Source: Runella sp. (GTDB lineage Bacteria > Bacteroidota > Bacteroidia > Cytophagales > Spirosomataceae). Taken from it: DNA of 55,638 nt. Below the pieces are notes generated by a model, which saw nothing but the letters and a program-made list of their open reading frames with translations, was not told the origin of the DNA and did not search any database. The first letter of the stretch is position 1, and the number at the start of each line of letters is the position of its first letter. Position numbers and translations under genes: made by a program. The DNA lies in the NCBI RefSeq assembly GCF_027484545.1, contig NZ_JAIXST010000244.1, positions 1-55,638 on the forward strand. The letters run 5' to 3'. Below, in pieces: positions 17,747-47,152 of the stretch.

Positions 17747-20059
17747 ATGAAACGCATTTATCTAAAATACAGTGTATTAGCTTTTGCGGTCGTCATTTAT
17801 GCCTGCTCGGTGAAAGTTGCCCAAAAAGGCACGACAACGAATACGTCAGTGGTTGCTGCTTCGAGCAATGTACCTACTGCGGAACTCAAAGCGGAGACTA
17901 AAAAAGACACGGTTCCGTCGCTTGGCGAATTTTCCTTAGTCCCCCTTACGCCTGAGCAAAGCCTGAAAAAATTTATCCTCCCAGAAGGGTACCATTTGGA
18001 ATTGGTGGCCAGTGAACCCATGATAACGGAGCCCGTCGCCATTGCTTGGGACGGGAATGCCAAAATGTACGTGGCCCAAATGGAAACCTATACGCAAGAC
18101 GCCGACGGCACGGGCACAAAAGACCCAAAAAGCCGAGTAATGCTGTTGGAAGATACGGACAATGACGGTAAAATGGACAAGAGCTCGGTCTTTATTAAAG
18201 ATTTGATTTTGCCCCGCATGATTCTTTGCGTCAATCATGAGTTGCTGGTCAATGAAACCGATACTTATGATATTTTCAGCTATAAAGACACCAACGGCGA
18301 CGGTATTGCCGATGCAAAAAAGCCCGTTTATACCGTAGGAAAAGTAGCCCCCGGCAACTTGGAGCATCAGCGAAGCGGATTAATTTGGAACCTTGATAAT
18401 TACATTTACCAGACGGTTGACCCCATTCGTTTTCGGTACGTAAATGGTGTACTTCAGCCCGATTCACTGCACAGCGGTTCCAATGGACAATGGGGATTAA
18501 CTTCAGACAATTACGGTCGTTTATTTTATAGCCGAGGTGGGGGCGAAAATGCCGGTTCAGGTTTTCAGATCAACCCAAAATATGGTCAATTGGAATTTGC
18601 CGATGCCTACAGCGAAGAAAAATTCAGCCCTGTTTGGTCAAAGATTCAAAATCCTGATGTGCAGGGTGGTTTACCAAGAGTACGTTCCGACAGCACCTTA
18701 AATCATTTTACTTCTGCCAATGGGCAATCCATCTTTAGAGGAGATCGCCTTCCCGCCGATCTGGTCGGCGATTATATTATCAATGAACCTGTTGCCCGTA
18801 TCATCAGACGCGCAAAAGTCATTAACCGAGAAGGAAAAACGTACCTTGAAAACGTATACGATCACAAAGAATTTATCGCTAGTACCGATACCTATTTCCG
18901 ACCGGTGAATACCTACACTGGGCCTGACGGATTGCTGTATATTGTGGATATGAGCCGAGGGATTATTCAGGAATCCAATTGGACGCAGAAGGGCAGCTAC
19001 CTGCGTGGGAAAATTGATTATTACGGATTAGCAAAAGTAAATCAACGCGGACGGATTTGGCGATTGGTGCACGACGGTTATAAAGCAGGGCCGAAACCTA
19101 CGATGCTGGATGTGCCGGCAAGCAGTTTGGTGAAATACTTAGACCATCCCAACGGTTGGTGGCGCGACAATGCACAAAAACAAATCATCATTTTGGGCGA
19201 TAAATCAGTAGTGGCTGAATTAAAGTCCATGGCAACCGGTCAAAAAGGAGTGTCAGCTTTAGGACGGCTACATGCTTTGTGGACCCTCGAAGGACTCAAT
19301 GAAATCAACAAAGAAACATTAACTACAGCTCTGAAAGATACGGACCCCCAAATCAGACGGGCTGCTATTTGGATGAGCGAACTGTATATCAAAAAGAATG
19401 ATAACCAATGGATTGAGCAGCTTGGTCACTTAATGACGGACGAGAATTTTGATGTTAAAACACAGCTTCTTTTGTCCTTTGGGGCAAGTAAAAATGAATT
19501 GGCTAAGAAGATTGTGCAGGACATTTTAGCCCAAAATCCGAATAACCAAATGCTGGCAAGTGTAAAAAAGAGCACGGATAGAAACGAAGATGCCAAAATA
19601 TACGGTGCCAAATTGGCAGGCTTTACCCCGGTCGAAAGAAAACTGATTTTGGGTGGCGGAGAAATCTATAAAGGGATGTGCTCACCTTGTCACGGGGGCG
19701 ACGGCAAAGGACTCCCCACCAATGCGGCTCCTCCGTTGAGAGGTGCCAGACACGTCAACGCCGATAAAGAAATTGCCATTCGGATTTTGTTGCACGGGTT
19801 GAAGGGACCCATTGAAGGGAAAACCTATCCGAGCGAAATGGCTTCGATGAAAGATAATTCTGATGAATGGATTGCCTCGGTCTTGAGTTATGTTCGCTAT
19901 GAATTTGTGGGAACGTCGTTACGTGCGGCCAAAGGTCGGCAATCGGCGGTAGTGCAGCCTTCCGATGTAAAAGCGCTGCGTGATAAGTATTCAAAAGTAA
20001 AAACGGCCTGGACGATTGACGCGTTTGATGACCTGTTTGCCCCCACCATCAGAAATTGA
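17747..20059 (+). CDS. PVC-type heme-binding sugar-dehydrogenase-like lipoprotein (propeller + HEAT + cytochrome c)
   Basis: A 770-residue protein, apparently a lipoprotein (lipobox-like IYAC then SVKVAQ). Residues about 75-470 form a glucose/sorbosone-dehydrogenase-like beta-propeller: EGYHLELVASEPMITEPVAI, DTDNDGKMDKSSVF, ANGQSIFRGDRLP, GPDGLLYIVDMSRG. HEAT-like helices follow at about 470-620. The C-terminal cytochrome c domain has one heme site, CSPCH (Cys645-His649), in GEIYKGMCSPCHGGDGKGLP. Family members are thought to oxidise sugars or alcohols and pass electrons through the heme, although few have been studied. It lies 10 bases upstream of a GH92 gene. A second protein of the same plan is encoded at 44885-47152. 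Confidence 0.87.
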   Translation: MKRIYLKYSVLAFAVVIYACSVKVAQKGTTTNTSVVAASSNVPTAELKAETKKDTVPSLGEFSLVPLTPEQSLKKFILPEGYHLELVASEPMITEPVAIAWDGNAKMYVAQMETYTQDADGTGTKDPKSRVMLLEDTDNDGKMDKSSVFIKDLILPRMILCVNHELLVNETDTYDIFSYKDTNGDGIADAKKPVYTVGKVAPGNLEHQRSGLIWNLDNYIYQTVDPIRFRYVNGVLQPDSLHSGSNGQWGLTSDNYGRLFYSRGGGENAGSGFQINPKYGQLEFADAYSEEKFSPVWSKIQNPDVQGGLPRVRSDSTLNHFTSANGQSIFRGDRLPADLVGDYIINEPVARIIRRAKVINREGKTYLENVYDHKEFIASTDTYFRPVNTYTGPDGLLYIVDMSRGIIQESNWTQKGSYLRGKIDYYGLAKVNQRGRIWRLVHDGYKAGPKPTMLDVPASSLVKYLDHPNGWWRDNAQKQIIILGDKSVVAELKSMATGQKGVSALGRLHALWTLEGLNEINKETLTTALKDTDPQIRRAAIWMSELYIKKNDNQWIEQLGHLMTDENFDVKTQLLLSFGASKNELAKKIVQDILAQNPNNQMLASVKKSTDRNEDAKIYGAKLAGFTPVERKLILGGGEIYKGMCSPCHGGDGKGLPTNAAPPLRGARHVNADKEIAIRILLHGLKGPIEGKTYPSEMASMKDNSDEWIASVLSYVRYEFVGTSLRAAKGRQSAVVQPSDVKALRDKYSKVKTAWTIDAFDDLFAPTIRN

Positions 20060-20069
20060 AAAAGTCGGT

Positions 20070-22358: not shown

Positions 22359-22389
22359 ATTAAATGTCAAGAATAGCTTAACCTACAAA

Positions 22390-24771
22390 ATGAAAAAATT
22401 ACTCCTTTACTTTTCGTGCCTTTTCTGTTTTTATGTAATAGGGGGCAACCCGACTTTCGCCCAAAAAGCAAAAGTTGAACCTGTTGATTTAGTCTATCCT
22501 TTGGTCGATGCGGCCAATTCTCGATGGTTCTTTTTTAACTCTGCAACAAGACCATTTGGCATGGTCAATTTAAGTCCCGATAATGCCATTGAGGCTGACT
22601 GGAATGCAGGTTATCGTTATGAAAAAGATAGTATCAAATGTTTTAGTCATGTGCATGGATGGCAGTTATCAGGCATTCCTGTTCTGCCCACAACTGGTGA
22701 TTTTAAAGGACATTTAGGCTCAAATATATACGGTTCAAAGTTTTCACATACAACCGAAACCATTAAGGCTGGCTATCATAAAGTTGTTTTAGATGCTTAC
22801 GGAATTACAGCCGAATTGACCTCAACAACTCGTGTTGGTTTTCATAAATATACTTTTCCGAAATCAGCAAAAAGTCAAATCCTCTTCGATTTTTCTACTT
22901 TTCTTGGCCCTTCTGACACGCAAAAAGGATTTGTAAAAAAAGTAAGCAATCAAGAGATTGAAGGCTACGCAATTATGGCACCGACCGTTCGCCGACCAAA
23001 AACCTTGACTGTTTTCTTCGTAGCTCAATTCGATAAACCTTTTGATTCGTTTAAAGGCTGGCGAAAAGGACAATTAGAAGAAATAAATAATAGTATTGAA
23101 GGCGAAAAAGTTGGAGCGTATGTAAACTTTACAACACAAGCTGGCGAAGTTAGAAAAATGAAAGTGGCGATTTCGTATGTAAGTGAAGAACAAGCAAGAT
23201 TGAATCTGACAAGTGAATTACCTTATTGGGATTTTGAAAAAGCGGTAAAAGATAGCAGAGAAGATTGGAACAAATGGCTGAGTAGAATCGAAATTGAAGG
23301 CGGAACTGATATTGAAAAAAGACGATTTTACACCGATTTATGGCATGCTTTGCAAGGAAGACGCATTATTTCGGACGTGAATGGCAAATATTCTGACATG
23401 ACAGGCCCCGAACGCCTCATCAAGCAAATTCCGTTGGATTTCCAAGGCAAGCCCAAGTACAACCACCACAATTCAGATTCATTTTGGGGAGCTCAATGGA
23501 CAATCAATACTCTCTGGCATTTGGTTTACCCCGAAGTTACCGAATCATTTGTCAATTCGATGGTGATGATGTATCAAGACGGCGGGCTCATTCCCCGTGG
23601 CCCTGCGGGTGGCAATTATACCTACGTGATGACAGGAGCAGCAACAACGCCTTTTATTGTCAGTGCATATCTAAAAGGCATCAAAGGTTTTAATATTGAA
23701 AAAGTCTATGAAGGCCTACGAAAAAATCATTTCCCAGGCGGAATGATGAGCAAAGCAGGCTACGAACACAACACTTTCAAAGGCGGTGGGATTGAATATT
23801 ATTTAGAGCGTGGCTATGTGCCGCACCCTTTGAGCAAAACCAAATATGGTTTTCACCAAGACGGTTCTACCCAAACACTCGAATATGCCTATCAAGATTA
23901 TACTTTGGCACAGATGGCTAAGAAACTGGGCAAAAAAGATGATTATGAGCTATTTATGAAACGTGCTACCAACTATAAAAACATTTGGAACGCTGACATT
24001 GGTTGGATGTGGAATAGAACTTTAGATGGAAAATGGGCAGAACCGGTTGACATTTTACGTTATGACAATGGTTGGGAAGAGGGCAATGCCGCCCAATATG
24101 TATGGTTTGTGCCGCACGATGTGCAGGGCTTGATAAATTTGATGGGAAGCAGAGAGGCATTTACGACTAAGCTAAATACTTCATTTGAAAAAGCCCAAAC
24201 ACATGATTTTGTTTCGGGAAAATCGCACTATAAAGAAACGTTGGAGGAATTACGTCGGGTTTATATCAATTATGGCAACCAGCCGAGCATTCAAACGGCC
24301 TTTTTGTTTAATTATGCGGGCTCTCCGTGGTTAACTCAATATTGGTCACGCCAAGTAATTGACAAAGTTTATAGCGGCATATCGCCTCAATTTGGTTACA
24401 GCGGCGACGAAGACCAAGGTCTAATGGGCAGTTTGTCTGTTTTAATGAAATCGGGTATTTTTTCTACGAATGGCGGCACTTCTCCTGAGCCATTTTACGA
24501 AATCAGTAGCCCAATTTTCAATAAAATAACCTTTCATCTAAACCCAAAATATTATTCGGGCAAAACATTTACGATTGAAGCAAAGAATAATTCTTCAAAA
24601 AACCTTTATATCCAATCAGCACAGCTGAATAGTCAAGCGTTAAATAAACCCTGGATTTTGCATGAAACCGTTGTGAAAGGCGGAAAATTGACCTTAAATA
24701 TGGGCGAAAAACCCAATAAATCATGGGGAAGTAAACCAGAGCAAGCACCGCCTTCAATGACTGGAAAATAA
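22390..24771 (+). CDS. GH92-family exo-alpha-mannosidase-like protein (divergent copy 2)
   Basis: A 793-residue exported GH92 protein, 31 bases after copy 1 (signal peptide ends PTFAQ). It keeps the family opening VDLVYPLVDAANSRWFFFNS and ATRPFGMVNLSPD, the substrate-pocket strand FSHVHGWQLSGIPVLPTTG, SFWGAQWTINTLWHLVYPE, YINYGNQPSIQTAFLFNYAG, and GDEDQGLMGSLSVLMKSGIF. Where copy 1 has the usual CPGSxxYxxGSPLF, this one has a changed segment ending YEISSPIF. It probably belongs to another GH92 subfamily with a different mannoside preference. Base composition becomes visibly more AT-rich here than in copy 1, so the two are unlikely to come from a recent duplication. Confidence 0.9.
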   Translation: MKKLLLYFSCLFCFYVIGGNPTFAQKAKVEPVDLVYPLVDAANSRWFFFNSATRPFGMVNLSPDNAIEADWNAGYRYEKDSIKCFSHVHGWQLSGIPVLPTTGDFKGHLGSNIYGSKFSHTTETIKAGYHKVVLDAYGITAELTSTTRVGFHKYTFPKSAKSQILFDFSTFLGPSDTQKGFVKKVSNQEIEGYAIMAPTVRRPKTLTVFFVAQFDKPFDSFKGWRKGQLEEINNSIEGEKVGAYVNFTTQAGEVRKMKVAISYVSEEQARLNLTSELPYWDFEKAVKDSREDWNKWLSRIEIEGGTDIEKRRFYTDLWHALQGRRIISDVNGKYSDMTGPERLIKQIPLDFQGKPKYNHHNSDSFWGAQWTINTLWHLVYPEVTESFVNSMVMMYQDGGLIPRGPAGGNYTYVMTGAATTPFIVSAYLKGIKGFNIEKVYEGLRKNHFPGGMMSKAGYEHNTFKGGGIEYYLERGYVPHPLSKTKYGFHQDGSTQTLEYAYQDYTLAQMAKKLGKKDDYELFMKRATNYKNIWNADIGWMWNRTLDGKWAEPVDILRYDNGWEEGNAAQYVWFVPHDVQGLINLMGSREAFTTKLNTSFEKAQTHDFVSGKSHYKETLEELRRVYINYGNQPSIQTAFLFNYAGSPWLTQYWSRQVIDKVYSGISPQFGYSGDEDQGLMGSLSVLMKSGIFSTNGGTSPEPFYEISSPIFNKITFHLNPKYYSGKTFTIEAKNNSSKNLYIQSAQLNSQALNKPWILHETVVKGGKLTLNMGEKPNKSWGSKPEQAPPSMTGK

Positions 24772-24800
24772 ATTTAACAGCAGTATTTTGAGTAAAAACT

Positions 24801-25640
24801 ATGAGATGTTTTAAAAACTTTCGGCTCGTTTTATCTTCGTTACCTATCCTTTTCTCCTTGAATTGTTTTTCACAAGAAAAGAGCAATATGGTAGAGTTGA
24901 TGTATAAGCAGGTGGATACCTTAAAGTTAGGCTTAAAAGTCTATTATCCAACATCTTTACAGAAAGAACAAACTTATCCAACCATCGTTTTCTTTTTTGG
25001 GGGCGGCTGGAATGGGGGTTCTACAAAACAATTTGAAACCCATGCCTTGCACTATGCTGCAAAGAATTTTATTACGGTTTTGGTAGATTATCGGGTAAAA
25101 ACAAGACACAACACCACGCCATTTGAAAGTTTAAAAGATGCGAAATCAGCAATTCGATATTTGAGAAAAAATGCCACAAAATTGGGTATTGATGCCAATC
25201 GAATCGTCGGGTCGGGCGGTTCTGCGGGTGGGCATTTGGCGGCAGCCTGTTTTACTAATGAATCTATTAATGAAGCTAATGACGATTTGACAATAAGTGC
25301 AAAGCCGAATGCCTTAGTCTTGTTCAATCCTGTCATTGACAACGGAATAGGCGGTTATGGCTTTGAGCGAATTGGAGATAGATACATGGAGTTTTCGCCT
25401 ATACACAACATCCAAAAAGGTTTTCCACCTACCATTTTCTTTTTGGGAACAAACGACAACCTGATTCCAGTGGAAACGGCTCAGAAATTCACGAATAAAA
25501 TTGAGGAAGTCGGAAGTCGCTGCGACCTTTATTTGTTTACAAATCAAGTACATGGTTTTTTTAATAAAGAACCCTTTCTGTCAGAAACGATTTTGAAAAC
25601 CGACGTTTTTCTTCAATCAATAGCCTATTTGAAGCCTTAA
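24801..25640 (+). CDS. Exported alpha/beta-hydrolase esterase
   Basis: A 279-residue secreted alpha/beta-hydrolase likely to remove acyl (for example acetyl) groups from the glycan. Signal peptide ends NCFSQ. Visible: oxyanion-loop segment FFFGGGWNGGS (about 64-74), nucleophile Ser141 in GSGGSAGGHLAA, acid Asp219 in LGTNDNLIP, and base His251 in NQVHGFFN. The complete triad in the right order supports activity. It lies directly upstream (11 bases) of a sulfatase gene and belongs to the same run of plus-strand enzymes. Acetyl- or xylan-esterase-like members of this fold are common in PULs. The exact substrate cannot be read from sequence. Confidence 0.85.
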   Translation: MRCFKNFRLVLSSLPILFSLNCFSQEKSNMVELMYKQVDTLKLGLKVYYPTSLQKEQTYPTIVFFFGGGWNGGSTKQFETHALHYAAKNFITVLVDYRVKTRHNTTPFESLKDAKSAIRYLRKNATKLGIDANRIVGSGGSAGGHLAAACFTNESINEANDDLTISAKPNALVLFNPVIDNGIGGYGFERIGDRYMEFSPIHNIQKGFPPTIFFLGTNDNLIPVETAQKFTNKIEEVGSRCDLYLFTNQVHGFFNKEPFLSETILKTDVFLQSIAYLKP

Positions 25641-25650
25641 TCCAATTGAT

Positions 25651-27165: not shown

Positions 27166-27173
27166 AAAAAGCG

Positions 27174-28652: not shown

Positions 28653-28711
28653 GTATGTAAACCTATAGTTTTAAATCTCAATGACAATGAAGCAATAAAA
28701 ATCCGTTGAAT

Positions 28712-29566
28712 ATGAATAAGTTACTTGTATTATTTCTGTTCTTAACAAGCCACTTTTTGTTTGCTCAAAAATCAATAAACATTGAGAAAATAAAAGCGAT
28801 GAAGGGTTTTGTGGCACTATGGGATTTTAAAGAACCCGAAGGCCAAGACCGAAGAGCCGTTGGTAAAGGCGATTTTCCTTTGAAAGAAACCAATGGCAGC
28901 ATTCAACGCATTAACGAGGGGCCTTTGTCGGGTTATTCTGCGTTGTTTGGCGGTAGTAGTTTTTTGTCATTACCCAATGTCCAAACGGGGGCATTGAACA
29001 TTTATGGCCCCAATCAAGGGGTTACGGTGGTGGCTTGGGCAAAATGGACGGGCGAACAAACGGGTTTTGTGGGCGGAATGTGGAACGAGTACCAAGACGG
29101 TGGCAAACGCCAATACGGACTGTTTGTGTCGTTGCCGCACTACAACGGCAAAAACCAAGTCTGTGGACACATCTCGCATACGGGAAAGCCTACGCCACCC
29201 TTTCCATATTCAAGTGATTATTCGGCAAGTAAACAGCAAGTACCTGCCAATGAGTGGGTTTGTGTGGCATTTACCTACGATGGTAAAAATATTAAATCGT
29301 ATCTGAACGGTGTTTTTGAGAAACGTGAACCCGAACTTATCAACAATACCAAAGGCTTTGATGGCTATCCAGAGGGCTTGGTTCAATCCAAAAATCCCTA
29401 CTATTTTCCCTACGGCATGGGCAACAACGGCTCTGATTTCACCGTTGGGGCGGTGCTTTTGAAAAGAGGAATGGGTAATTTTTTCAAAGGACAAATAGGC
29501 GGGTTAGCTGTATTTGACAGAGCGCTCACCGAAAAACAGATTAAAATGTTTAGTTTGAAAGATTGA
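28712..29566 (+). CDS. Exported LamG/concanavalin-like protein
   Basis: A 284-residue secreted protein; ATG 28712 fits the signal peptide (ends LFAQ), and the TTG at 28706 is less likely. It is a single LamG/pentraxin-like jellyroll: GFVALWDFKEPEGQ, GYSALFGGSSFLSLPN, TVVAWAKWTGEQTGFVGGMW, WVCVAFTYDGKNIKSYLNG, FKGQIGGLAVFDRALTEKQI. These are the canonical strands of LamG-type sugar-binding domains. No catalytic motif is seen, so it may be a carbohydrate-binding or surface protein that helps the enzymes around it. It ends just before the 250-base gap holding a hairpin repeat. Confidence 0.82.
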   Translation: MNKLLVLFLFLTSHFLFAQKSINIEKIKAMKGFVALWDFKEPEGQDRRAVGKGDFPLKETNGSIQRINEGPLSGYSALFGGSSFLSLPNVQTGALNIYGPNQGVTVVAWAKWTGEQTGFVGGMWNEYQDGGKRQYGLFVSLPHYNGKNQVCGHISHTGKPTPPFPYSSDYSASKQQVPANEWVCVAFTYDGKNIKSYLNGVFEKREPELINNTKGFDGYPEGLVQSKNPYYFPYGMGNNGSDFTVGAVLLKRGMGNFFKGQIGGLAVFDRALTEKQIKMFSLKD

Positions 29567-29621
29567 TTGCATGTTACTATTTTTTTTAATAACAAATAAA
29601 CAAATCCTTGCGCGTGAGGAA

Positions 29622-33978: not shown

Positions 33979-34027
33979 TTTTTAGCTTTTTAATTTGAAA
34001 TAATTACCTTCAATTGAGTCATTAAAT

Positions 34028-35413: not shown

Positions 35414-35414
35414 T

Positions 35415-37013: not shown

Positions 37014-37018
37014 TAATT

Positions 37019-38540: not shown

Positions 38541-40142
38541 ATGAGAGTTATCCTTTTGACTTACTTAACTATTTCATTGTTTTCGATACAAAGCAATGGT
38601 CAGTCAATGGTGCAAATACCGCACCAACGAACAATTGCGTGGAAGACAAACGCTGATTTGGCAATTCAGGTTTATCAATCGTTTGCGAGCAAAAAAATCA
38701 ATTTTGACAAATTGAGCGAACGAGGTAATACACCCAGAATTTTACTCGCAAAATTGCTTTTGAAACAAGACATCGAGGACGTAAATAAGGCAATCCAACA
38801 AATGAAAGTTCGGGGCGTTACGGGTTCGCATTGGGCATTGAATCCCAAAGGCGATTATGATTTTACGCTCATGCCCTTGACCACCATTCTGTTTTTGTTC
38901 GATAATCAACCTGATTTGCTTTACCCCAAAACAAAAGAACATTTGATAAACACATTGCTCACCGAAGAAGGTGGTAAATACCGACGGGCCACGCCACGTA
39001 CATTAGGTTTAGTGGCCGATACCGAAAATCATATTTTAATGACCGAAGGCTCTCGTTATCTAAAAAATCGTTGGAAGATGCTTCATGGCAATTCGTCGCC
39101 CACCTATGATAACGTCTCAAATGGTATGGAAGTTAAGATTTTGGCTTATTTAAACCGCATGAAAACCAATGGTTTGTATGAATATAATTCCATTCCTTAC
39201 ATTGGCTACACCATAGCAGCTTTGTTAAATTTAGAAGCTTTTGCTTCTGAAAAAGTGAGCACCGAAGCCCGCAATGTATTGGATTACATGAATTGGACTT
39301 ATGCCTTGGGGTCTTACAAATTAAGGCATTATCCACCCATGCGTAGGCGGTACGAAAAAGCTAAAATTCAAGAGTTAACCACTGACTATCAGTCTGTTTT
39401 CGTAAAAGCTTGGTTGAGTTATGCCCCCATTGAGCCATTTAATACCGATATTTCAAACGCAGAAGTACACGCCTTAGTGGGTTCGTGCATGCCTTATCGG
39501 CCTGCTGATAAAGTGGTAGAAGTAATTTTTAACAAAGGCGAAGGCTATTTCGTAAAATTAGGCCACGGCAAAAAATCTTGTCCTGAAATATTCACGGCGG
39601 GCAAGCACTTTTTGCTTTCGGCAGGTGGAGCCAATCAAGGCAAAAACTCATTGGTGGTAGCACGCCCAACTACACTTTTTCTGAATGACATGGCCGATCA
39701 ACTGCCTAAAACTTTTCATTTGACAGGAAAAGGCAATGATTTTATGAAATGGAACAATACAGGCGTTTATAAAAACTTTGCTTGTGCTTCGGGCAAAGTC
39801 TTTGTGCCAGAAGGGTTTAAGCCCGTTTTGGAAAGAAAAAATTGGGCGATTTATGAAGGAAATAGCAATGTCAAAATCGCAGTTTATGCTACCGAAAATG
39901 TAGGTTTGATGTTGGTGTTTGAAGACAAGAAAGCCGAAGATTTATTGGCAAATCTTGAAAAATCCAATCCGAGTGATGAGCAATTAAAAACCCAATTTCA
40001 ATTCCCTGATGGCCAAATCATCACTTACGATGTCAATGCCCCTCAAAACAAATGGGTCATAAAATCTATTGATGGCAAATCAATAGAAAGAGATTTTAGT
40101 AAATGGGAATTGATAAACAACGAATCCAATGTTTTAAAGTAA
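38541..40142 (+). CDS. Exported protein, possible helical-toroid glycan enzyme (unassigned)
   Basis: A 533-residue secreted protein (signal peptide ends SNGQ). The helical first 350 residues contain PRTLGLVADTENHILMTEGS, a NHxxM-like pocket that recalls lyase/heparinase-type toroids, plus NGLYEYNSIPYIGYTIAALL and NYMNWTYAL-like helices (visible DYMNWTYALGSYKLRHYPPM). A beta-rich second half contains VFVPEGFKPVLERKNWAIYE. The general plan matches the two unassigned proteins at 14447 and 16164, although similarity between them is not obvious by eye. Its neighbours are sulfatases upstream and an esterase 9 bases downstream. Candidate novel lyase or hydrolase; no family signature recognised. Confidence 0.6.
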   Translation: MRVILLTYLTISLFSIQSNGQSMVQIPHQRTIAWKTNADLAIQVYQSFASKKINFDKLSERGNTPRILLAKLLLKQDIEDVNKAIQQMKVRGVTGSHWALNPKGDYDFTLMPLTTILFLFDNQPDLLYPKTKEHLINTLLTEEGGKYRRATPRTLGLVADTENHILMTEGSRYLKNRWKMLHGNSSPTYDNVSNGMEVKILAYLNRMKTNGLYEYNSIPYIGYTIAALLNLEAFASEKVSTEARNVLDYMNWTYALGSYKLRHYPPMRRRYEKAKIQELTTDYQSVFVKAWLSYAPIEPFNTDISNAEVHALVGSCMPYRPADKVVEVIFNKGEGYFVKLGHGKKSCPEIFTAGKHFLLSAGGANQGKNSLVVARPTTLFLNDMADQLPKTFHLTGKGNDFMKWNNTGVYKNFACASGKVFVPEGFKPVLERKNWAIYEGNSNVKIAVYATENVGLMLVFEDKKAEDLLANLEKSNPSDEQLKTQFQFPDGQIITYDVNAPQNKWVIKSIDGKSIERDFSKWELINNESNVLK

Positions 40143-40151
40143 ACGAATAGC

Positions 40152-41660
40152 ATGAAAAGAGCAAATTTCATTTCCCTGTTTTTTATTTTGTTAAGCCATT
40201 TGTTGCACGCCCAAGATGTAATTTCTTGGAAAGTCAGCATTGCAGTGGCTCCAGAAATGAGACAATCTTTTATCGAAGGTGGGAGATTAATTTTTCATGT
40301 AACCAAACAGCATGAACGAGAACCACGCCTTCGTTCAGAAATCACTTTTGGCGTAACTCCTCAACATTGGGAGGCTAATTTGCCATTTGTTTTAGATTCA
40401 AAAGATAAAAATGGTTTAACTATTGGCTTGGATAAACTAAAACCGAATGCTTCGGATAAGTACTATTTTCAGGTTGTTTACAAGCAAAATATAGACGATG
40501 GACAGGAAAACGTGTCGGGCAATTTGTACAGTAACATTGATTCGGTGTCGTTTTCAACACAAATTCAGCTTAGCCTGACCCTCAACAAAATCATTCCCGA
40601 AGCCACAGTTATTAAGCATGAATTTGTCAAGTTGGTAGAAATCAAAAGTAAATATCTATCTGAATTCTCGAGTAAGCCTCGCTATTTGAAAGCAGCCATT
40701 TTGTTACCATCAAGTTATTTTGAAAATCCTAATAAAACGTATCCGATTTGTTACCGAGCGGCGGGTTTGAATGGGCGTTACACTGCCATCAATGGTTTGG
40801 TCAATAACAAAGATTTTACAGATTGGTGGTTTACCAAAACAGCACCTCAAATCATCTATGTCTTTCTTGATTCACAAGGTCCTTACGGCGATACCTATCA
40901 AGTCGATTCAGAGAATAATGGCCCTTGTGGCAAAGCATTGACCGAAGAATTGATTCCCGAAATTGAAAAGCAAGTTCGCTACAAGGCAGATTCAAAAATG
41001 CGTTTTCTGACTGGCAATTCTACTGGTGGATGGGTGTCGTTGGGTTTACAAATTTTGTATCCCGATTTCTTTGATGGTACGTGGTCGTATAGCCCCGATC
41101 CCGTTGATTTTGAGCATTATGGATTGATAAATATTTACGAAGATGAGTCCATTTTTTATAATCGCTACGGCTATTTACAACCTGGCCGAAGAACAATTTA
41201 CGGTGAACCAACTTTTTCAATGAAGGATTGGATTGCGGGAGAAAATCTCAACAGTCGGACGGGCAACTACTTGGTTTCGGGCGGGCAATTTGGTGCATAT
41301 AATGCAGTTTTTGGGCCAAAAGGCAGTGATGGTCTACCTTCCTTAATGTTCGATCCGATTTCTGGAAAAATCGACCATAACATTGCCAAACAGTGGGAAA
41401 AGTATGATTTGAAGAAGGTTTTAGAAAAAAACTGGTCAACGCTTGGTCCTAAATTGCAAGGGAAAATATGGATTTGGATGGGCGATATGGATGGACTTTA
41501 CTCGAATGTAGCAACACGTTTTTTACAAAAATTCATGGATAAAACCGAAAACCCAAAATCAGATGCTAAGATTTCGTTTACGGCAATGGCAGGGCATGGA
41601 CAAGAGTGGAGCGATAAGGCAGTTTTGACTTTGATTGCCGAAAAAGTAGATAAAAAATAA
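40152..41660 (+). CDS. Exported esterase-D-like alpha/beta-hydrolase
   Basis: A 502-residue secreted protein (signal peptide ends LLHAQ). The first 170 residues form beta-rich domains (ISWKVSIAVAPEMRQSFIEG, LYSNIDSVSFSTQIQLSLTL), which may bind carbohydrate. The catalytic domain then begins YLKAAILLPSSYFENPNKTY. The nucleophile is Ser290 in TGNSTGGWVSLGLQ, a G-x-S-x-G elbow. The late block FTAMAGHGQEWSDKA supplies a plausible catalytic His. This is the esterase-D / enterochelin-esterase-like fold. It probably removes ester groups from the glycan. It sits between an unassigned toroid-like protein and an alpha-galactosidase, with gaps under 10 bases. Confidence 0.8.
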   Translation: MKRANFISLFFILLSHLLHAQDVISWKVSIAVAPEMRQSFIEGGRLIFHVTKQHEREPRLRSEITFGVTPQHWEANLPFVLDSKDKNGLTIGLDKLKPNASDKYYFQVVYKQNIDDGQENVSGNLYSNIDSVSFSTQIQLSLTLNKIIPEATVIKHEFVKLVEIKSKYLSEFSSKPRYLKAAILLPSSYFENPNKTYPICYRAAGLNGRYTAINGLVNNKDFTDWWFTKTAPQIIYVFLDSQGPYGDTYQVDSENNGPCGKALTEELIPEIEKQVRYKADSKMRFLTGNSTGGWVSLGLQILYPDFFDGTWSYSPDPVDFEHYGLINIYEDESIFYNRYGYLQPGRRTIYGEPTFSMKDWIAGENLNSRTGNYLVSGGQFGAYNAVFGPKGSDGLPSLMFDPISGKIDHNIAKQWEKYDLKKVLEKNWSTLGPKLQGKIWIWMGDMDGLYSNVATRFLQKFMDKTENPKSDAKISFTAMAGHGQEWSDKAVLTLIAEKVDKK

Positions 41661-41666: not shown

Positions 41667-43685
41667 ATGAAAAATTTAATAAAAAAAATAGCCTCGTTGT
41701 TAATTATCTGCCTGTGTTTTAGTTCTGGCATTTTTGCCCAAAATACTAAGACAATTTGGTTAGATGATTTACCAATTAAGTCATTTTCTGAGGGAATTCC
41801 TTCGGTTTCGGCCAAAACAAATGCAGGTGGTGATTCTATTCGGATGAATGGAAAACTTTTTAAACATGGTATAGGTGTAAGTTCAACCAGCGTTTTGTCA
41901 TTCTTTTTAGATGGACACGCCACCAAATTTACAGCAATAGTTGGCGTGGATGATAAAGGCGTGAAAGATTTACCTCTCAAATTTTATGTAATTGGTGATA
42001 GAAAAGTTTTGTTTGAGAGTGGTGAAATGAATTTAGGTGATGAACCAAAAACCGTCAAAGTTAATTTGACAGGAATTAAACGTTTAGGGCTTTTGGTAAC
42101 TATCGAAGAAAAAGGATTTAATAGGTCTTATTCCAATTGGGCAAATGCAAAGTTTGAAATGAAAGATGATTTTATTCCTAAAAATACGCCTAATGTTGAT
42201 GAAAAATATATTCTAACGCCTCAACCTGACAAAAAACCTAAAATCAATTCACCAAAACTTTTCGGGGCAAGACCCAATAGCCCTTTTCTTTATTCGATTG
42301 CTGCCACTGGCGAACGCCCAATGAGTTTTTTGGCAAAAAACTTACCACAAGGTCTTTCAATTGATTCAAAAACTGGACTAATTACTGGAAAAGTAGCTAA
42401 AAAAGGTACTTACTTAAGTACTTTAACGGCTAAAAATGCCTTTGGTGAAGCTACAAAAGAACTAAAAATTATCATCGGCGATACCATTGCACTTACTCCC
42501 CCAATAGGGTGGAATGGGTGGAATTCTTGGGCAAGAAACATTGACCGAGAAAAAGTAATAGCCTCAGCCGATGCCATGGTAAAAATGGGACTCAACCAAC
42601 ATGGTTGGACTTACATCAACATTGACGATGCTTGGCAAGGACAACGTGGTGGGGCTTTTAATGCCATTCAACCAAACGAAAAATTTCCGAATTTCAAAGA
42701 AATGGCCGACTATATTCATAGTTTGGGTTTGAAACTTGGGGTTTATTCTACACCAATGATAACAAGTTATGCAGGATACATTGGTGGTACATCAGATTTT
42801 GCCGATGGAAAAATCACTGATTCCATTAAGAATAATAAGCGAGCATTTCGCTATGTCGGAAAATACCGTTTTGAAGAAAACGATGCCAAACAAATGGCTG
42901 CATGGGGCGTCGATTATTTAAAATACGATTGGAGAATTGAAGTGCCATCTGCCGAAAGGATGTCGTCAGCTCTAAAAAATTCGGGACGAGATATTGTTTA
43001 CAGTATTTCAAATTCTGCCCCTTTTGCAAATGTGATAGATTGGGTACGATTAACAAATACTTACCGCACAGGCCCCGATATTCGTGATTCTTGGCTCAGT
43101 CTTTATGTTTCGGCTTTTACACTTGACAAATGGAGTCCTTACGGTGGGCATGGGCATTGGCTCGACCCCGACATGATGATTTTAGGAAATGTTACCACTG
43201 GCTCTGAACTTCATCCAACCCGACTTACGCCCGACGAGCAGTATAGCCACGTAAGTCTATTTAGCTTACTATCAGCACCATTGCTAATTGGCTGCCCGAT
43301 TGAGCAATTAGATGCTTTTACCTTGAATTTGCTTACAAATGATGAAGTTATTGAAATTAATCAGGACCCTTTAGGGAAATCGGCCCGATTGGTTTGGGAG
43401 AATGATGGTATCCAAATTTGGTTAAAGTCCCTGGAAGACGGTTCGTATGCGGTGGGACTTTTCAACGTGGGAGATTTTGGAAAAACACCCGAATCGTATT
43501 TCCGCTGGGGTGATGAAGCCGCTAAATCGTTTACGTTTGATTTTGCCAAAGTAGGCTTGAAAGGAAACTATAGGTTGCGGGATGTCTGGCGTCAAAAAGA
43601 TTTAGGCAGTTTTAAAGAGGTTTTTAAAACAAATATTCGGCATCATGGAGTTATATTACTGCGAATGTTTCCTTCAAAGAATTGA
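41667..43685 (+). CDS. GH27 alpha-galactosidase with NPCBM and Ig-like domains
   Basis: A 672-residue exported glycoside hydrolase. Domains in order: signal peptide (ends GIFAQ); NPCBM carbohydrate-binding module, about 27-165 (GIPSVSAKTNAGGDSIRMNG, FKHGIGVSSTSVLSFFLDG); a putative Ig fold, about 195-270 (GERPMSFLAKNLPQGLSIDS); and the GH27 barrel from about 272 (LTPPIGWNGWNSWARNIDRE, WTYINIDDAWQGQRGG). The predicted nucleophile is Asp421 in YLKYDW and the acid/base is Asp471 in RTGPDIRDSW. GHWLDPDMMILG follows. A beta-sandwich completes the C-terminus. This is the standard NPCBM-GH27 arrangement of Bacteroidota. It should remove terminal alpha-galactose (or a close analogue). Confidence 0.95.
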   Translation: MKNLIKKIASLLIICLCFSSGIFAQNTKTIWLDDLPIKSFSEGIPSVSAKTNAGGDSIRMNGKLFKHGIGVSSTSVLSFFLDGHATKFTAIVGVDDKGVKDLPLKFYVIGDRKVLFESGEMNLGDEPKTVKVNLTGIKRLGLLVTIEEKGFNRSYSNWANAKFEMKDDFIPKNTPNVDEKYILTPQPDKKPKINSPKLFGARPNSPFLYSIAATGERPMSFLAKNLPQGLSIDSKTGLITGKVAKKGTYLSTLTAKNAFGEATKELKIIIGDTIALTPPIGWNGWNSWARNIDREKVIASADAMVKMGLNQHGWTYINIDDAWQGQRGGAFNAIQPNEKFPNFKEMADYIHSLGLKLGVYSTPMITSYAGYIGGTSDFADGKITDSIKNNKRAFRYVGKYRFEENDAKQMAAWGVDYLKYDWRIEVPSAERMSSALKNSGRDIVYSISNSAPFANVIDWVRLTNTYRTGPDIRDSWLSLYVSAFTLDKWSPYGGHGHWLDPDMMILGNVTTGSELHPTRLTPDEQYSHVSLFSLLSAPLLIGCPIEQLDAFTLNLLTNDEVIEINQDPLGKSARLVWENDGIQIWLKSLEDGSYAVGLFNVGDFGKTPESYFRWGDEAAKSFTFDFAKVGLKGNYRLRDVWRQKDLGSFKEVFKTNIRHHGVILLRMFPSKN

Positions 43686-43717: not shown

Positions 43718-43804
43718 AACCACTAAGAACACTAAGGGTCCACAAAGAACAAAAGAAAAAATCTTCATGCACTTTGCGTAAAACTCTTTGTGTTCTTTGT
43801 GGTT
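43718..43804. repeat. Imperfect long inverted repeat upstream of the GH43-like gene
   Basis: AACCACTAAGAACACTAAG (43718-43736) pairs with CTTTGTGTTCTTTGTGGTT (43786-43804), 17 of 19 positions, around a 49-base loop that also holds CACAAAGAAC. This actual/ACAC-AAG type of intergenic inverted repeat is of a kind often scattered in bacterial chromosomes. It lies in the 178-base gap between the alpha-galactosidase and the GH43-like gene. Confidence 0.6.
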
Positions 43805-43863
43805 TTTGTAAACAATATCAAACAGAGCAGAGCCAATTATATTTCCTCTTTTGGGGCATTTTT

Positions 43864-44865
43864 ATGAGAAACGAAATTCGACTGAATAAAAAAACAGTAC
43901 TAAACATTTTGCTTTTCTTTCTATTTATAGGGAAGGGAGAAATGCTGTTTGCTCAAAACCCCGAAATGTATTACGGAGATTTGGACGTTCCTGCAAGACC
44001 CTATGCCAAAGATCCTTACGTGATTTTTTTTCAGGGAACGTATTGGATGTATTATTCGGTGCCAAGCGAGGACCGCAAAGAATGGTATATTGGCATTGCT
44101 AACAGTAGGGATTTGGTACACTGGAATAAAAAAGGGGATATCAAAGGTCAAAAAGGAACTGTGGAAGAAAAAGGCATTTGTGCGCCGGGAGCATTGGTAA
44201 AAGACGGTGTTTTGCACCTTTTTTATCAAACCTACGGGAACGGTAAATTGGATGCTATTTGCCACGCTTTTTCTACCAATGGTATTAATTTTGAAAGAGA
44301 TGTCACCAACCCCATTTTTAGACCAAAAATAAGCGATTGGAGTTGCGGCAGGGCGATTGATGCAGAAGTGATTGCTTACAAAAACAACTATTTTTTGTAT
44401 TACGCCACAAGAGACCCGGAATACAAAATTCAGCAACAAGGCGTAGCTGTAGCACCGATTACTGCTAATTTTGACCGCAACAGCTGGACTGAATTACCCA
44501 ATATGCCCATGCTGAAACCTGAATTGACTTGGGAGAAAAAATGCATAGAAGCCGCATCTTGCATTCAAAAAGGGAAGTATTTGTACATGTTCTATGCAGG
44601 AGCTTATAACAATGAACCTCAGCAAATAGGAGTTGCCAGAAGCCAAGACGGGATTCATTGGAAACGGTTATCTAAAGAGCCTTTCCTGAAAAACGGCGAG
44701 GTCGGAGCATGGAATGAAAGTGAAAGCGGGCACCCCAACATTTTTAAAGCCCAAGACGGTCGATATTATCTGTTTTTTCAAGGCAATAATGACAAAGGAA
44801 AAACGTGGTATTTGTCTAAAGTTGAAATCGGTTGGAATAAAAAAGGACCTTATTTGAAAAAATAA
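43864..44865 (+). CDS. Exported GH43/GH117-like five-bladed beta-propeller hydrolase
   Basis: A 333-residue secreted protein. ATG 43864 gives a signal peptide ending MLFAQ; the frame upstream runs into the inverted repeat and is not used. The propeller strands recur as RPYAKDPYVIFFQGTYWMYY, GICAPGALVKDGVLHLFYQT, GRAIDAEVIAYKNNYFLYYA and HPNIFKAQDGRYYLFFQGN. Candidate catalytic acids are Asp in AKDPY, Asp in AIDAEV and Glu in WNESESGHP. Such enzymes remove arabinose, xylose, galactose or anhydrogalactose; the substrate cannot be told apart here. It follows the alpha-galactosidase and precedes a cytochrome-tailed protein by 20 bases. Confidence 0.8.
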   Translation: MRNEIRLNKKTVLNILLFFLFIGKGEMLFAQNPEMYYGDLDVPARPYAKDPYVIFFQGTYWMYYSVPSEDRKEWYIGIANSRDLVHWNKKGDIKGQKGTVEEKGICAPGALVKDGVLHLFYQTYGNGKLDAICHAFSTNGINFERDVTNPIFRPKISDWSCGRAIDAEVIAYKNNYFLYYATRDPEYKIQQQGVAVAPITANFDRNSWTELPNMPMLKPELTWEKKCIEAASCIQKGKYLYMFYAGAYNNEPQQIGVARSQDGIHWKRLSKEPFLKNGEVGAWNESESGHPNIFKAQDGRYYLFFQGNNDKGKTWYLSKVEIGWNKKGPYLKK

Positions 44866-44884
44866 AACCAGTAGCATATAACAA

Positions 44885-47152
44885 ATGAAAATGTCCAAAT
44901 TCACCATTAAAAATCTTAACTATAAGATTGTATTTCTCTCCATCTTAGGGCTTTCCGCCTTCATGGTAAGTTTTAGAAACCTCACTTTTGAACAACCCAA
45001 ATTTTCTCTTGAAAACTATAAAGTGGAAGAAGGGTTTGAACTAAAGCTAATCGCTTCCGAGTCGTTGTTGAAAGCTCCCGTCAGTATGGATTTTGATAAC
45101 AAAGGCCGTATGTGGGTGGTGGAAATGATTGGGTACATGCCCAATCTCGAAGGCATCGGTGAGGAGATACCAAACGGCAGGATCAGTATTTTGGAAGACG
45201 TAAACAAAGACGGCGTCATTGACCGTTCCAAAGTCTTTTTGAATAAACTCGTTTTGCCGCGCGGACTGGCTCACGTCTACGGCGGATTGTTGTACGTGGA
45301 TGGTCCCAAACTGTGGTTTGTAGAAATAAACAACGACAAGCCCGGCAAAAAAACACTGGTCGACCCGGTCTACGCCGAAGGCGGCAACGTAGAGCATTCT
45401 TCCAACGGATTGATGATGAACATTGACAACTGGATTTACAATGCCAATTACAATTTCAGGTATCAGTTAAAAAATGGGAAATGGGTAAAAGAACCCACCT
45501 CAAACCGGGGTCAGTGGGGGATAACGAAAGACAATTTTGGACGACTGTACTACAACAACAACAGCACCCAGTTACAGGGCGACTTTGTGTTGCCCAATAA
45601 AGTGATTCGGAACCGTTATTTTAAGCCTACCATCGCTGAAAATCAACGATTGACCAACAATAAGGTATTTCCAATTCACCAAACCTCGGTCAATCGGGGG
45701 TATCAAAAAGGAGTTTTGGACGAAAAAGGAATGCTGGTGGATGTGACCGCAGCTTGCGGTCCTTTGGTGTATCGGGGAGGGGCTTTTCCAGAAACGTACA
45801 ATCAGAATGCGTTTGTCTGTGTTCCGGAAGCCAATTTGATCAAACGAAACATTCTCACCTTTAAAAGCACTCAAACTGCTGCTAACCAGGCCGTTGAAAA
45901 GACAGAGTTTATCGCCTCTACCGATGAAGGTTTCCGTCCGGTCAATCTGTTTAACGGACCCGATGGGGCCATGTATATTGTTGATATGCACCGGGGCATT
46001 ATTCAACACAAGGCGTATATTTCGCAGTACCTTGCCGAACAGTTGGCCGCTAAAAAACTGGATACGTTACAGAATGCGGGGCGAATTTTGAAAGTAACCC
46101 ACAAAGAAACCAAACTCAATCCCGTACCTGATTTATCAAAAGCCTCTGCTGCTCAATTGGTGACGTTGCTCAGTAATCCAAATGGCTGGTTACGAGACCG
46201 TTCGCAGCAATTGTTGATTCAAAAGAAAGACCCTTCGGTGGTTAAAAACTTAATGGATTTAACCAAAGTAGCCAATGATTTTTCAACGTCCATTCATGCT
46301 TTGTACGTATTGGATGGGATAAATGCGCTGACCTTTGACGTTCTGAGCGATGTGGTAAAACAGTCAAAACAGCCCGAAACCATTGCCCATGCATTAGGAC
46401 TGTTGGAGCGTTTTGCAACCACGCAGCAGGTGGCGAAAATGAAAGAGAACAGCACCCAATTGTTAGCTCAAAACAATGAGACTATCGACCTTTATTTGTC
46501 AATATCCCTTGCTCCCTGGCTCAAATTGTCTGAAGCGATATTCCTGCCCATTCTCTCAGAAATAGAAAAAAAATACGCTGACCGACGCATCTTTCAGGAG
46601 GCCATTGTCAGCAGTCTGGAAGGAAAGGAGGAAAACTATCTTGCTACTCAGAATCCCAATTCGATTCTTAAAAGCAATTTGACATTGGCCGTCAATAATC
46701 ACCAAAAGAAAGAACTAAATCCCATTTTTGTCAAGGAAACGAATGTGGTGGACAACAGAACAAAAGGCTTGCAACTGTTCAGAAGCATTTGTGCTACCTG
46801 TCACGGGGCCGACGGTAAAGGCATTCAGGACTTGGCGCCGCCGCTTAAAGAATCCGAATACATTGACGGTTCGATGAAGCGTTTGGCCGCCATCATTCTG
46901 CACGGCGTCAGCGGGCCGATTCATGTCAATGGGAAACTGTACAAATTAAACAACGAAATGCCGGCGCTTATCAATAACAAGTCCATCAGCGATCAGGACA
47001 TTGCGGACATTATTCGATTCACCCAGAATGCCTTTGCGAAAGTAGGAAAAGGTATCTCTACTGATGATGTTAAAAAAATGAGAGAGAGAAAACCCGCAGG
47101 AAACGGTATTTTGACCGAAAAACAATTGATGGAAGATGATTTCGAAAAGTGA
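44885..47152 (+). CDS. PVC-type heme-binding sugar-dehydrogenase-like protein (propeller + HEAT + cytochrome c), second copy
   Basis: A 755-residue exported protein of the same plan as the one at 17747-20059. The propeller is at about 40-400 (VEEGFELKLIASESLLKAPV, VNKDGVIDRSKVF, STDEGFRPVNLFNGPDGAMY, IVDMHRGIIQHKAY). HEAT-like helices are at about 420-600. A C-terminal cytochrome c has one heme site, CATCH (Cys636-His640), in LFRSICATCHGADGKGIQDL, with APPLKESEYI and NEMPALINNK as the distal region. Start ATG 44885, or ATG two codons later. Presumed periplasmic sugar oxidoreductase; electrons would go to the heme and onward to the respiratory chain. The natural substrate of this family is unsettled. 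Confidence 0.86.
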   Translation: MKMSKFTIKNLNYKIVFLSILGLSAFMVSFRNLTFEQPKFSLENYKVEEGFELKLIASESLLKAPVSMDFDNKGRMWVVEMIGYMPNLEGIGEEIPNGRISILEDVNKDGVIDRSKVFLNKLVLPRGLAHVYGGLLYVDGPKLWFVEINNDKPGKKTLVDPVYAEGGNVEHSSNGLMMNIDNWIYNANYNFRYQLKNGKWVKEPTSNRGQWGITKDNFGRLYYNNNSTQLQGDFVLPNKVIRNRYFKPTIAENQRLTNNKVFPIHQTSVNRGYQKGVLDEKGMLVDVTAACGPLVYRGGAFPETYNQNAFVCVPEANLIKRNILTFKSTQTAANQAVEKTEFIASTDEGFRPVNLFNGPDGAMYIVDMHRGIIQHKAYISQYLAEQLAAKKLDTLQNAGRILKVTHKETKLNPVPDLSKASAAQLVTLLSNPNGWLRDRSQQLLIQKKDPSVVKNLMDLTKVANDFSTSIHALYVLDGINALTFDVLSDVVKQSKQPETIAHALGLLERFATTQQVAKMKENSTQLLAQNNETIDLYLSISLAPWLKLSEAIFLPILSEIEKKYADRRIFQEAIVSSLEGKEENYLATQNPNSILKSNLTLAVNNHQKKELNPIFVKETNVVDNRTKGLQLFRSICATCHGADGKGIQDLAPPLKESEYIDGSMKRLAAIILHGVSGPIHVNGKLYKLNNEMPALINNKSISDQDIADIIRFTQNAFAKVGKGISTDDVKKMRERKPAGNGILTEKQLMEDDFEK

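Follow-up and report, generated by a model that had tools for sequence, protein, structure and literature searches.

In the open-licence literature we found one purified protein with the TIGR02604/DUF7133 plus cytochrome c architecture, Lac161_ORF7 (AGW45552; TIGR02604, HEAT_2 and cytochrome c). The available portion of that report (PMC5342196) presents it as a beta-galactosidase encoded on a cosmid of verrucomicrobial origin, with DUF377 and PF14100 genes next to it. The protein was produced by IPTG induction in E. coli BL21(DE3)pLysS, a strain with no lac deletion in the genotype given, and was assayed through glucose release, with a reported Km of 1.8 mM and kcat of 13.2 per s for lactose, the Km being called similar to that of LacZ by the authors. 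In the planctomycete Paludisphaera, 18 Lac161_ORF7 homologs are counted among glycoside hydrolase (GH)-like proteins outside the CAZy families, and the same organism has 20 DUF1080 proteins (PMC5352709, available part). Genes for planctomycete-specific cytochrome c (PSCyt) lie beside sulfatase genes in Verrucomicrobia and were suggested to mirror GH function (PMC5615132, available part). As to 3-keto-glycosides, the DUF1080 protein BT2157 is cited as a 3-ketotrehalose hydrolase and another, CCNA_01705, is proposed for 3'-ketolactose (PMC9007349, excerpt), while AtOGE, a TIM-barrel protein annotated as a sugar phosphate isomerase, beta-eliminates 3-keto-O-glycosides (PMC10628242, excerpt). We found no open-licence paper on the combination of sorbosone dehydrogenase with a polysaccharide utilisation locus (PUL).

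Here we analysed a contig of Runella sp. (NZ_JAIXST010000244.1; 55,638 nucleotides, the whole of which is called the window). It holds a SusCD PUL, recognised by a SusC/SusD pair together with CAZymes and a regulator, and composed of an ECF sigma factor, FecR, SusC, SusD, a double DUF1080 protein, two GH92, a GH27-like protein, GH95 and six sulfatases, among which stand three heme proteins, P1, P2 and P3. The features are as follows.

5803..6534, + strand: ECF sigma factor of the PUL (Pfam Sigma70_r2/r4_2)
6486..7532, + strand: FecR anti-sigma (Pfam FecR, FecR_C)
7550..10957, + strand: SusC-type TonB receptor (Pfam CarbopepD_reg_2, Plug)
10978..12840, + strand: SusD (Pfam SusD_RagB, SusD-like_3)
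12905..14305, + strand: double DUF1080 (3-keto-disaccharide hydrolase family; two PF06439 stretches, 291 bits)
14447..16153, + strand: U144, recurrent PUL member of no known family (twin-arginine-like leader, by eye)
16164..17702, + strand: U161, no known family
17747..20059, + strand: P1 (DUF7133 propeller 69-443, HEAT 524-599, C-terminal cytochrome c with CSPCH at 645)
20016..22358, + strand: GH92
22390..24771, + strand: GH92
24801..25640, + strand: BD-FAE-type esterase
25651..27165, + strand: sulfatase (PF00884)
27174..28652, + strand: sulfatase (PF00884)
28706..29566, + strand: Laminin_G_3 protein
29817..32486, + strand: P2 (N-terminal cytochrome c with CISCH at 66, DUF6797 234-338, C-terminal propeller)
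32593..38383, + strand: four sulfatases (starts 32593, 34028, 35382, 37019; PF00884)
38541..40142, + strand: U385, no known family
40152..41660, + strand: esterase-like (PF00756)
41667..43685, + strand: GH27-like (Melibiase_2 + NPCBM)
43774..44865, + strand: GH43/GH32/GH130-like protein
44885..47152, + strand: P3 (DUF7133 propeller 38-408, C-terminal cytochrome c with CATCH at 636)
47136..49625, + strand: GH95

A sequence-only reading of this DNA had described a PUL with a double DUF1080 protein, which agrees with the two PF06439 stretches and the accompanying SusC/SusD, GHs and sulfatases; residues 32-465 of the DUF1080 protein match the solved protein 4jqt (E 4e-154). U144 has no Pfam or NCBIfam match and a PDB search gave just two chance-level matches, and its orthologs in the same PUL elsewhere are 66-87% identical; the PDB search with U161 returned no relative. 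A Bacteroidota-type promoter pattern occurred 3 times versus 4.5 expected and not in the gap before P2, and sigma-70 and terminator scans of 12000-30500 stayed at background level.

The same reading had placed three heme proteins at 17747-20059, 29817-32486 and 44885-47152, coordinates that are exact, and its c-type heme sites are confirmed. P1 (770 aa), P2 (889 aa) and P3 (755 aa) each contain a single CxxCH, and since all three sites fall within cytochrome c domains they are not chance motifs. The Pfam cytochrome c domain is matched in P2 (E 9e-11) and P3 (2.5e-9); in P1, Cytochrom_C scores 21.7 against a cut-off of 21.3 (E 5e-4), CBB3 matches below its Pfam cut-off (E 2e-4), and heme domains from nitrite-reductase structures are a further match (E 2.6e-12). 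By eye, a Met downstream of CxxCH is a candidate second heme ligand in all three proteins, and the P1 leader appears lipoprotein-like. P1 (157.4 bits) and P3 (177.9 bits) exceed the NCBI cut-off of 122.2 for TIGR02604 (PVC-type heme-binding CxxCH), so that assignment to a curated family succeeded for these two, whereas P2 reached 28.4 bits. Pfam names the propeller of P1 and P3 DUF7133 rather than glucose/sorbosone dehydrogenase (GSDH), and that of P2 gives only a sub-cut-off SGL match; P2 is a cytochrome c joined to DUF6797 and a distant propeller. Direct BLAST between P1 and P2 was not significant, and P3 matched P2 at the cytochrome end only (E 0.002). HEAT repeats before a C-terminal heme domain, claimed for two proteins, stand for P1, the only one with HEAT above cut-off, but not for P3, which has no Pfam HEAT match at E<=0.001. 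To call the system undescribed was too strong, given that P1 and P3 belong to TIGR02604, that the available parts of PMC5342196 and PMC5352709 present the P1 architecture and its homologs, and that PMC5615132, as far as available, discusses other heme proteins beside sulfatases in Verrucomicrobia.

The likeness of the propellers to GSDH, also proposed by the sequence-only reading, is borne out by profile and fold comparison but not by a Pfam assignment, as none of the three proteins matches PF07995 at E<=0.001. With hhalign against six GSDH proteins of the same genome, DUF7133 (P1, P3) scored 97% and the P2 propeller 95%. The fold search covered P1 and P2. For P2, the first and third Foldseek matches were the glucose dehydrogenases 7cdy (E 1e-10) and 7cgz (E 2e-9), and Asd 3das and sGDH ranked lower; for P1, whose model is poor (pLDDT 63.5), HHIP came first, followed by sGDH 1c9u (2e-7), 2ism, the AA12 structures 6i1q/6jt5 and 3das. 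These comparisons support homology of all three propellers to those of PQQ-type sugar dehydrogenases. In sGDH, PQQ is contacted by His, Arg, Lys and an Arg-x-Arg pair. In our sequence alignments, the His of the GSDH H-x-G-G motif aligns with H207 of P1 and H171 of P3, a putative catalytic His, and a calcium-type loop of these two proteins is nearly invariant across 72 rows (D136, D140 and G141 100%, D144 97%). The RNPQG Arg aligns with R208 of P3 and R615 of P2 and is Asn in P1, the 72 rows having Arg in 18 and Asn in 34. P2 conserves H563, R615, R743 and R745 in 38/38 sequences, although the Arg-x-Arg placement depends on gaps. No Lys aligns with the GSDH GSLK position in P1, P3 or P2, the invariant K712 of P2 lying three residues beyond it; a PQQ site is thus not established, and the PQQ pocket to which the sequence-only reading had tied its oxidative model gains no support from these alignments. 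No PqqE above cut-off was found in the genome, and the control genomes were also all below cut-off.

The sequence-only reading had further argued that the propellers may be the oxidases because the usual 3-dehydrogenases are missing. The absence itself is correct: among the 33 window proteins scanned (of 58 ORFs of at least 100 aa) there is no Gfo/Idh/MocA or GMC protein, nor any LacC or TIM-barrel protein. On other contigs, however, six PF13618 (LacC-like) genes each lie ~1.5 kb or less from a GMC gene, one pair with a DUF1080 gene nearby and one with a TIM-barrel gene nearby. The absence among the scanned proteins therefore does not support the propellers as oxidases, and the six pairs count against an oxidation model in that they could perform the oxidation instead. 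P1-P3 might act as electron relays or substrate positioners for FAD-GMC/LacC-type 3-dehydrogenases encoded elsewhere. In LacABC it is the cytochrome subunit that accepts electrons, and the PQQ-site Lys is not conserved in P1-P3; a 370-residue propeller, on the other hand, is superfluous for a relay, and GMC/LacC is missing from the scanned window proteins. We regard a relay role as unlikely.

P2 and P3 proved to be recurrent members of the PUL. Sixty-nine P2-related loci were found, 12 of them relatives in context A; in the 10 that were re-annotated, DUF1080, U144 and P2 occur together in 7/10 and P2 with P3 in 7/10. In related genomes DUF1080, U144, GH27, P2 and P3 recur together, which argues that the PUL link is not chance. 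P1, P2 and P3 lie within ~22 kb in 4/14 genomes (G297 and those of loci L074, L103 and L107), and P3 adjoins GH27 or lies within two genes of it in L074, L087, L103, L107, L047 and L057. DUF7133 is common: 13 genomes of the genus carry 8-21 matches each and 47/59 genomes are positive (own included), so that two copies in one PUL could mean little. Coincidence is nevertheless highly improbable, as P2 and P3 have orthologs in this PUL in different genera and G297 has a different P2 at the locus instead of lacking one. Window and G297 proteins are 93% (DUF1080), 92% (GH95), 90% (P3), 89% (P1), 88% (GH27, 364 residues), 85% (SusD) and 83% (U144) identical. P2 is a diverged ortholog at 65%, with 78% between the G297 and Spirosoma proteins; amid neighbours mostly 83-93% identical, this suggests that the locus retains some P2. 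Mosaicism is a general feature of the PUL, SusD being 85% identical between the window and both G297 and Spirosoma while GH95 is 36% identical to that of Spirosoma, and exchange is therefore not unique to P2. In the P2 tree, PUL-borne sequences fall in separate clades that force at least 2 label changes with 10 short contigs of unknown context excluded, or 3 when these are counted as outside the PUL.

Outside this PUL, P2 has sugar-type neighbours. TIM-barrel proteins, sugar-isomerase-like, number 23 around P2 elsewhere versus 2.6 expected and occur in 11/29 loci; these loci come from related lineages and hence are not 11 independent events. ThuA-like proteins occur in 19/69 loci (the cluster representative scoring 32.0, below the Pfam cut-off of 33.4) and Gfo/Idh/MocA in 6/69. 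The clusters counted were chosen for recurrence and each named from one representative. A general coupling of DUF7133 with sulfatases or DUF1080 was rejected, each making up 2/77 neighbours of 20 of the 53 matches (among the matches listed) in three genomes, one of 78 neighbours having been dropped at a locus edge. TIM-barrel enrichment near DUF7133 is weak (6/77 versus at most 1/80, P 0.05; the control set of 20 regions includes one that overlaps with a DUF7133 site and was retained). In 12 other stretches of the same genome, HMMs from window and neighbour proteins detected DUF1080 in 1, TIM barrels in 3 and sulfatases in 0. Since DUF7133 and P2 turn up in many contexts that lack the genes of this PUL, and esterases accompany P2 in several PUL copies, the propellers might act on something other than sugars of the polymer (a released aldose, aromatic ester, alditol or polyphenol) and be linked to the PUL through a substituent. 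We consider this improbable, given that P2 has sugar-type neighbours and that DUF1080 and GH27 belong to the core of the PUL.

Our tentative preference, held with somewhat less than even confidence, is that P1-P3 may be periplasmic c-heme-linked sugar oxidoreductases that serve the PUL and feed its DUF1080 enzyme, the reaction being unproven. In this scheme, SusCD would import sulfated oligosaccharides, which sulfatases, esterases and GHs would trim; the propeller would oxidise a sugar hydroxyl, most likely at C3 of a terminal hexose, and pass electrons through its fused cytochrome c to a periplasmic cytochrome/oxidase chain, and the double DUF1080 enzyme would cleave the keto-glycoside product. 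Domain make-up, heme motifs, propeller homology and recurrence with the PUL are observed; propeller catalysis, its cofactor, substrate and C3 position, the electron route and DUF1080 coupling are what we infer from them. Oxidative glycan breakdown, as first proposed, thus has the support of the propeller homology, PUL recurrence and sugar-type P2 neighbours, but not that of a PQQ pocket or of the missing-dehydrogenase argument. A bolder version appears doubtful: that the PUL is a respiratory glycan-oxidation locus in which three PQQ-independent (or altered-PQQ) heme-propeller enzymes oxidise sulfated oligosaccharides, with keto-sugar cleavage via DUF1080 and electrons passing directly to cytochrome c, and that P2 (DUF6797) represents a new, repeatedly recruited enzyme family.

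The report of lactose hydrolysis by a protein of P1 architecture (PMC5342196, available portion) counts against an oxidation model. The propeller could itself be a glycosidase, with the heme either in an accessory role or allowing oxidation and elimination as a transient step, as that report, the 18 homologs listed with GH-like proteins in Paludisphaera (PMC5352709, available part) and the proximity of P3 to GH27 would suggest. Yet host LacZ carry-over may be the source of the Lac161_ORF7 activity given the missing lac deletion, and the plasmid description, in the portion available, names no cytochrome c maturation helper; we judge a glycosidase role quite unlikely. The protein types are already known; it is their recurrence together in a sulfated-glycan cluster that merits attention. 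A PUL whose recurrent core includes heme propellers defines the context of the substrate and would let genetics distinguish cleanly between oxidation, hydrolysis and relay; if oxidation is true, part of sulfated-glycan breakdown would be directly coupled to respiration.

Compared with described systems, P1 and P3 are by score members of the TIGR02604/PF23500 (DUF7133) proteins that include Lac161_ORF7. Only P1 shares its TIGR02604, HEAT_2 and cytochrome c order (compared by domain order), P3 having the propeller-cytochrome c order, and unlike Lac161_ORF7 both belong to a SusCD PUL that also encodes sulfatases and a double DUF1080 protein. The PSCyt genes of Verrucomicrobia likewise place heme proteins beside sulfatases, but that system is defined, in the available part of PMC5615132, by PSCyt1-3 domains; P1-P3 were compared with it by description, and the Pfam families reported for them include no PSCyt-type match. 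With the LacABC/GMC plus DUF1080 pathway (PMC9007349; PMC10628242, excerpts), the locus shares the DUF1080 partner and, around P2 elsewhere, TIM-barrel, ThuA-like and Gfo neighbours, and differs in having heme propellers, while the 33 scanned proteins include none of the GMC, LacC, Gfo or TIM-barrel types. From PQQ sugar dehydrogenases (sGDH, Asd, AA12 pyranose dehydrogenase; PF07995), P1-P3 differ in lacking a PF07995 match and the aligned Lys (P1 also the Arg) and in the fusion of their propellers to cytochrome c, whereas the fold (P1, P2), profile homology, the aligned His (P1, P3) and Arg (P3, P2) and the calcium-type loop (P1, P3) are alike.

The window takes up all of contig C28 of a 7.12-Mb genome, and its PUL (5803-49625) forms a single locus with every gene on the same strand, ordered as follows.

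Gene order of the PUL
From 5803, same strand: ECF sigma, FecR, SusC, SusD, double DUF1080, two orphans, P1, two GH92, esterase, two sulfatases, LamG protein, P2
To 49625, same strand: four sulfatases, orphan, esterase, GH27-like, GH43/130-like, P3, GH95

Neighbouring genes tightly abut P1 (17747-20059) and P3 (44885-47152), and a gap of 250 bases lies 5' of P2 (29817-32486). The sequence-only reading had described a trio of heme-propeller proteins in this PUL, and this was borne out in the main. P1 and P3 passed the TIGR02604 cut-off of 122.2 bits (157.4 and 177.9 bits) and each scored about 300 bits with PF23500, their identity being 29% over 732 aligned residues; P2 fell below the TIGR02604 cut-off with 28.4 bits and is made up of cytochrome c, DUF6797 and a propeller. 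DUF7133 is abundant, with 18 matches in this genome (16 above cut-off, some being fragments of one protein), 8-21 per genome in 13 genomes of the genus, and presence in 47 of 59 genomes, own included. DUF6797 is less common, with one copy here and a total of 6 positive genomes, this one among them, out of 295 in the class. Relatives of P2 were found at 69 loci, nearly all in Bacteroidota and one in a planctomycete, many of them in MAGs. In 38 of 63 P2 homologs (e.g. L065, L074, L089 and L104) the heme motif lies at least 150 residues from the called start, versus 66 in the window P2; these homologs have either an N-terminal extension, which the window copy lacks, or misplaced starts.

The orphans U144 (14447-16153), U161 (16164-17702) and U385 (38541-40142) matched no Pfam or NCBIfam family, and a PDB search with U144 and U161 gave no relative. 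U144 has orthologs of 66-87% identity in copies of the PUL elsewhere; it is possibly a lyase or glycosidase of a type not yet described.

AlphaFold gave pLDDT 82.4 and pTM 0.81 for P2 and a weak prediction for P1 (63.5 and 0.61). For P2, the top Foldseek hit was glucose dehydrogenase 7cdy; 7cgz, 3das and sGDH also ranked high, interspersed with hits such as a heparin-sensor propeller, SMP30 and cytochrome cd1. For P1, HHIP came first, followed by sGDH, 2ism and AA12 entries. With hhalign against six GSDH sequences of this genome, the sole family so compared, DUF7133 (72 rows) gave 97% and P2 95%. The H-x-G-G His of GSDH aligned to P1 H207 and P3 H171, in a column with His in 36/72 rows (39/72 in the adjacent column). 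The RNPQG Arg aligned to P1 N246, P3 R208 and P2 R615, the DUF7133 column holding Asn in 34/72 and Arg in 18/72 rows and P2 R615 being kept in 38/38. At or adjoining R-x-R-D are P2 R743 and R745 (38/38), their exact placement being gap-dependent, and P1 R385 (column Arg in 38/72) fits this motif only by ungapped count from the PDG motif. The calcium-type loop of DUF7133 is invariant. At the GSLK Lys position none of the three has Lys (P1 V349, P3 E315, P2 G709), although in P2 a Lys, the invariant K712, lies three residues further on. The propeller fold is thus retained, together with some probable active-site residues, and a PQQ site is putative. The results decide neither for nor against a purely structural propeller lacking PQQ or metal pockets, which the sequence-only reading had named as evidence against its oxidative model.

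We searched the window genes across the 69 P2 loci and found other genes of the PUL at 12 of them (context A), 10 of which were re-annotated (all except L050 and L075). DUF1080, U144 and P2 occur together in 7 of these 10 loci; P2 and P3 likewise co-occur in 7, and DUF1080 is missing from three, two of which are truncated at a contig end. All three heme proteins lie together at a single locus, within about 22 kb, in 4 of 14 genomes, namely G297, Spirosoma fluviale, Flavobacterium sp. SUN052 and Spirosoma telluris, the last with an interrupted P2 reading frame. The Spirosoma-like PUL version in the genome named Flavobacterium sp. SUN052 (L103/L229) reflects either transfer or a misnamed genome. 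In same-genus G242, G303 and G305, a P1 ortholog (69-70%) sits in a different stretch.

Between the window and the related genome G297, identity was 93% for DUF1080, 92% for GH95, 90% for P3, 89% for P1, 88% for GH27 (364 residues), 85% for SusD and 83% for U144. P2 of G297 (L209) is a diverged ortholog with 65% identity to the window P2 and 78% to the Spirosoma P2. In the P2 tree (63 rows), PUL-borne copies split among separate clades, and the starred branches force at least two label changes, with 10 short contigs of unknown context left out. These could represent one gain and one loss; P2 has probably been exchanged within the PUL, a P2 being retained. SusD and GH95 vary too, and this general mosaicism of the PUL weakens the argument.

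To name the neighbours of P2, we clustered the ORFs of the 69 loci and scanned one representative per cluster with Pfam. Xylose-isomerase-like TIM barrels formed three clusters (18, 9 and 6 loci); further clusters were ThuA-like (19 loci; representative below cut-off, 32.0 vs 33.4 bits), MFS (12), alpha/beta hydrolase (9), Gfo/Idh/MocA (6) and a DUF6807-DUF7133-HEAT-cytochrome c fusion (5: L067, L062, L063, L065 and L110, with Pfam run on L067 only). In L067 the fusion (12745-16659) is directly 3' of P2. In four Saprospiraceae-type MAG loci (L052, L055, L056, L092), a heme-motif protein of 951 aa and a DUF1501 protein are encoded downstream of P2. In 29 genomes, covering 29 of the 57 non-context-A loci, P2 flanks held 23 TIM barrels versus 2.6 predicted from TIM-barrel density, at 11 loci, which are not 11 independent events, the clusters being selected for recurrence and the lineages related. 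AtOGE, a protein of TIM-barrel fold whose annotation is sugar phosphate isomerase, is reported to beta-eliminate 3-keto-O-glycosides (PMC10628242); the tie of P2 to keto-sugar chemistry is by association only.

The propellers had also been proposed as oxidases from the absence of 3-dehydrogenases in the window, but this argument fails. Six PF13618 (LacC-like) genes lie on other contigs (C162, C251, C27, C132, C166 and C191), each with a GMC gene no more than about 1.5 kb away, so standard 3-dehydrogenases are available in trans; a DUF1080 gene is located about 4 kb or less from one of these LacAC-type pairs, and a TIM-barrel gene about 1 kb or less from another. At 20 of the 53 DUF7133 matches in three genomes, TIM barrels were weakly enriched (6/77 neighbours vs at most 1/80 controls, the control table covering the top 25 families), Gfo counted 5/77 vs 2/80, and sulfatase and DUF1080 2/77 each. 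In the 12 other DUF7133 stretches of this genome, TIM barrels occurred in three, Gfo in two, DUF1080 and SusC in one each, and sulfatases in none. Two long proteins of this genome with a GSDH propeller (L187 on C136, L189 on C11) are further heme-propeller designs; by eye, both contain a PKD-like region and a CxxCH heme motif, and L189 starts with a ThuA-like stretch.

Taken together, glycan oxidation by the heme propellers is plausible though unproven, and its support in the case of P2 exceeds what the sequence-only reading had available.

Neither DUF6797 nor DUF7133 was named in the open-licence papers searched. PSCyt genes are reported to adjoin sulfatases (PMC5615132), and Paludisphaera to encode 18 propeller homologs of AGW45552, 20 DUF1080 proteins (two double-domain) and 41 PF01408 proteins (PMC5352709); roles of DUF1080 proteins are treated in PMC9007349. 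Lac161_ORF7, which shares the architecture of P1, is reported to hydrolyse lactose (PMC5342196, values repeated in PMC7823827). In PMC5342196 the protein was produced in BL21(DE3)pLysS under IPTG induction and assayed by glucose release, with a Km that the authors call similar to that of LacZ; host LacZ carry-over is a possible source of the activity. Genes for a DUF377 and a PF14100 protein lie in what may be its operon (PMC5342196), PF14100 being the DUF6807 that is fused to DUF7133 in L067.
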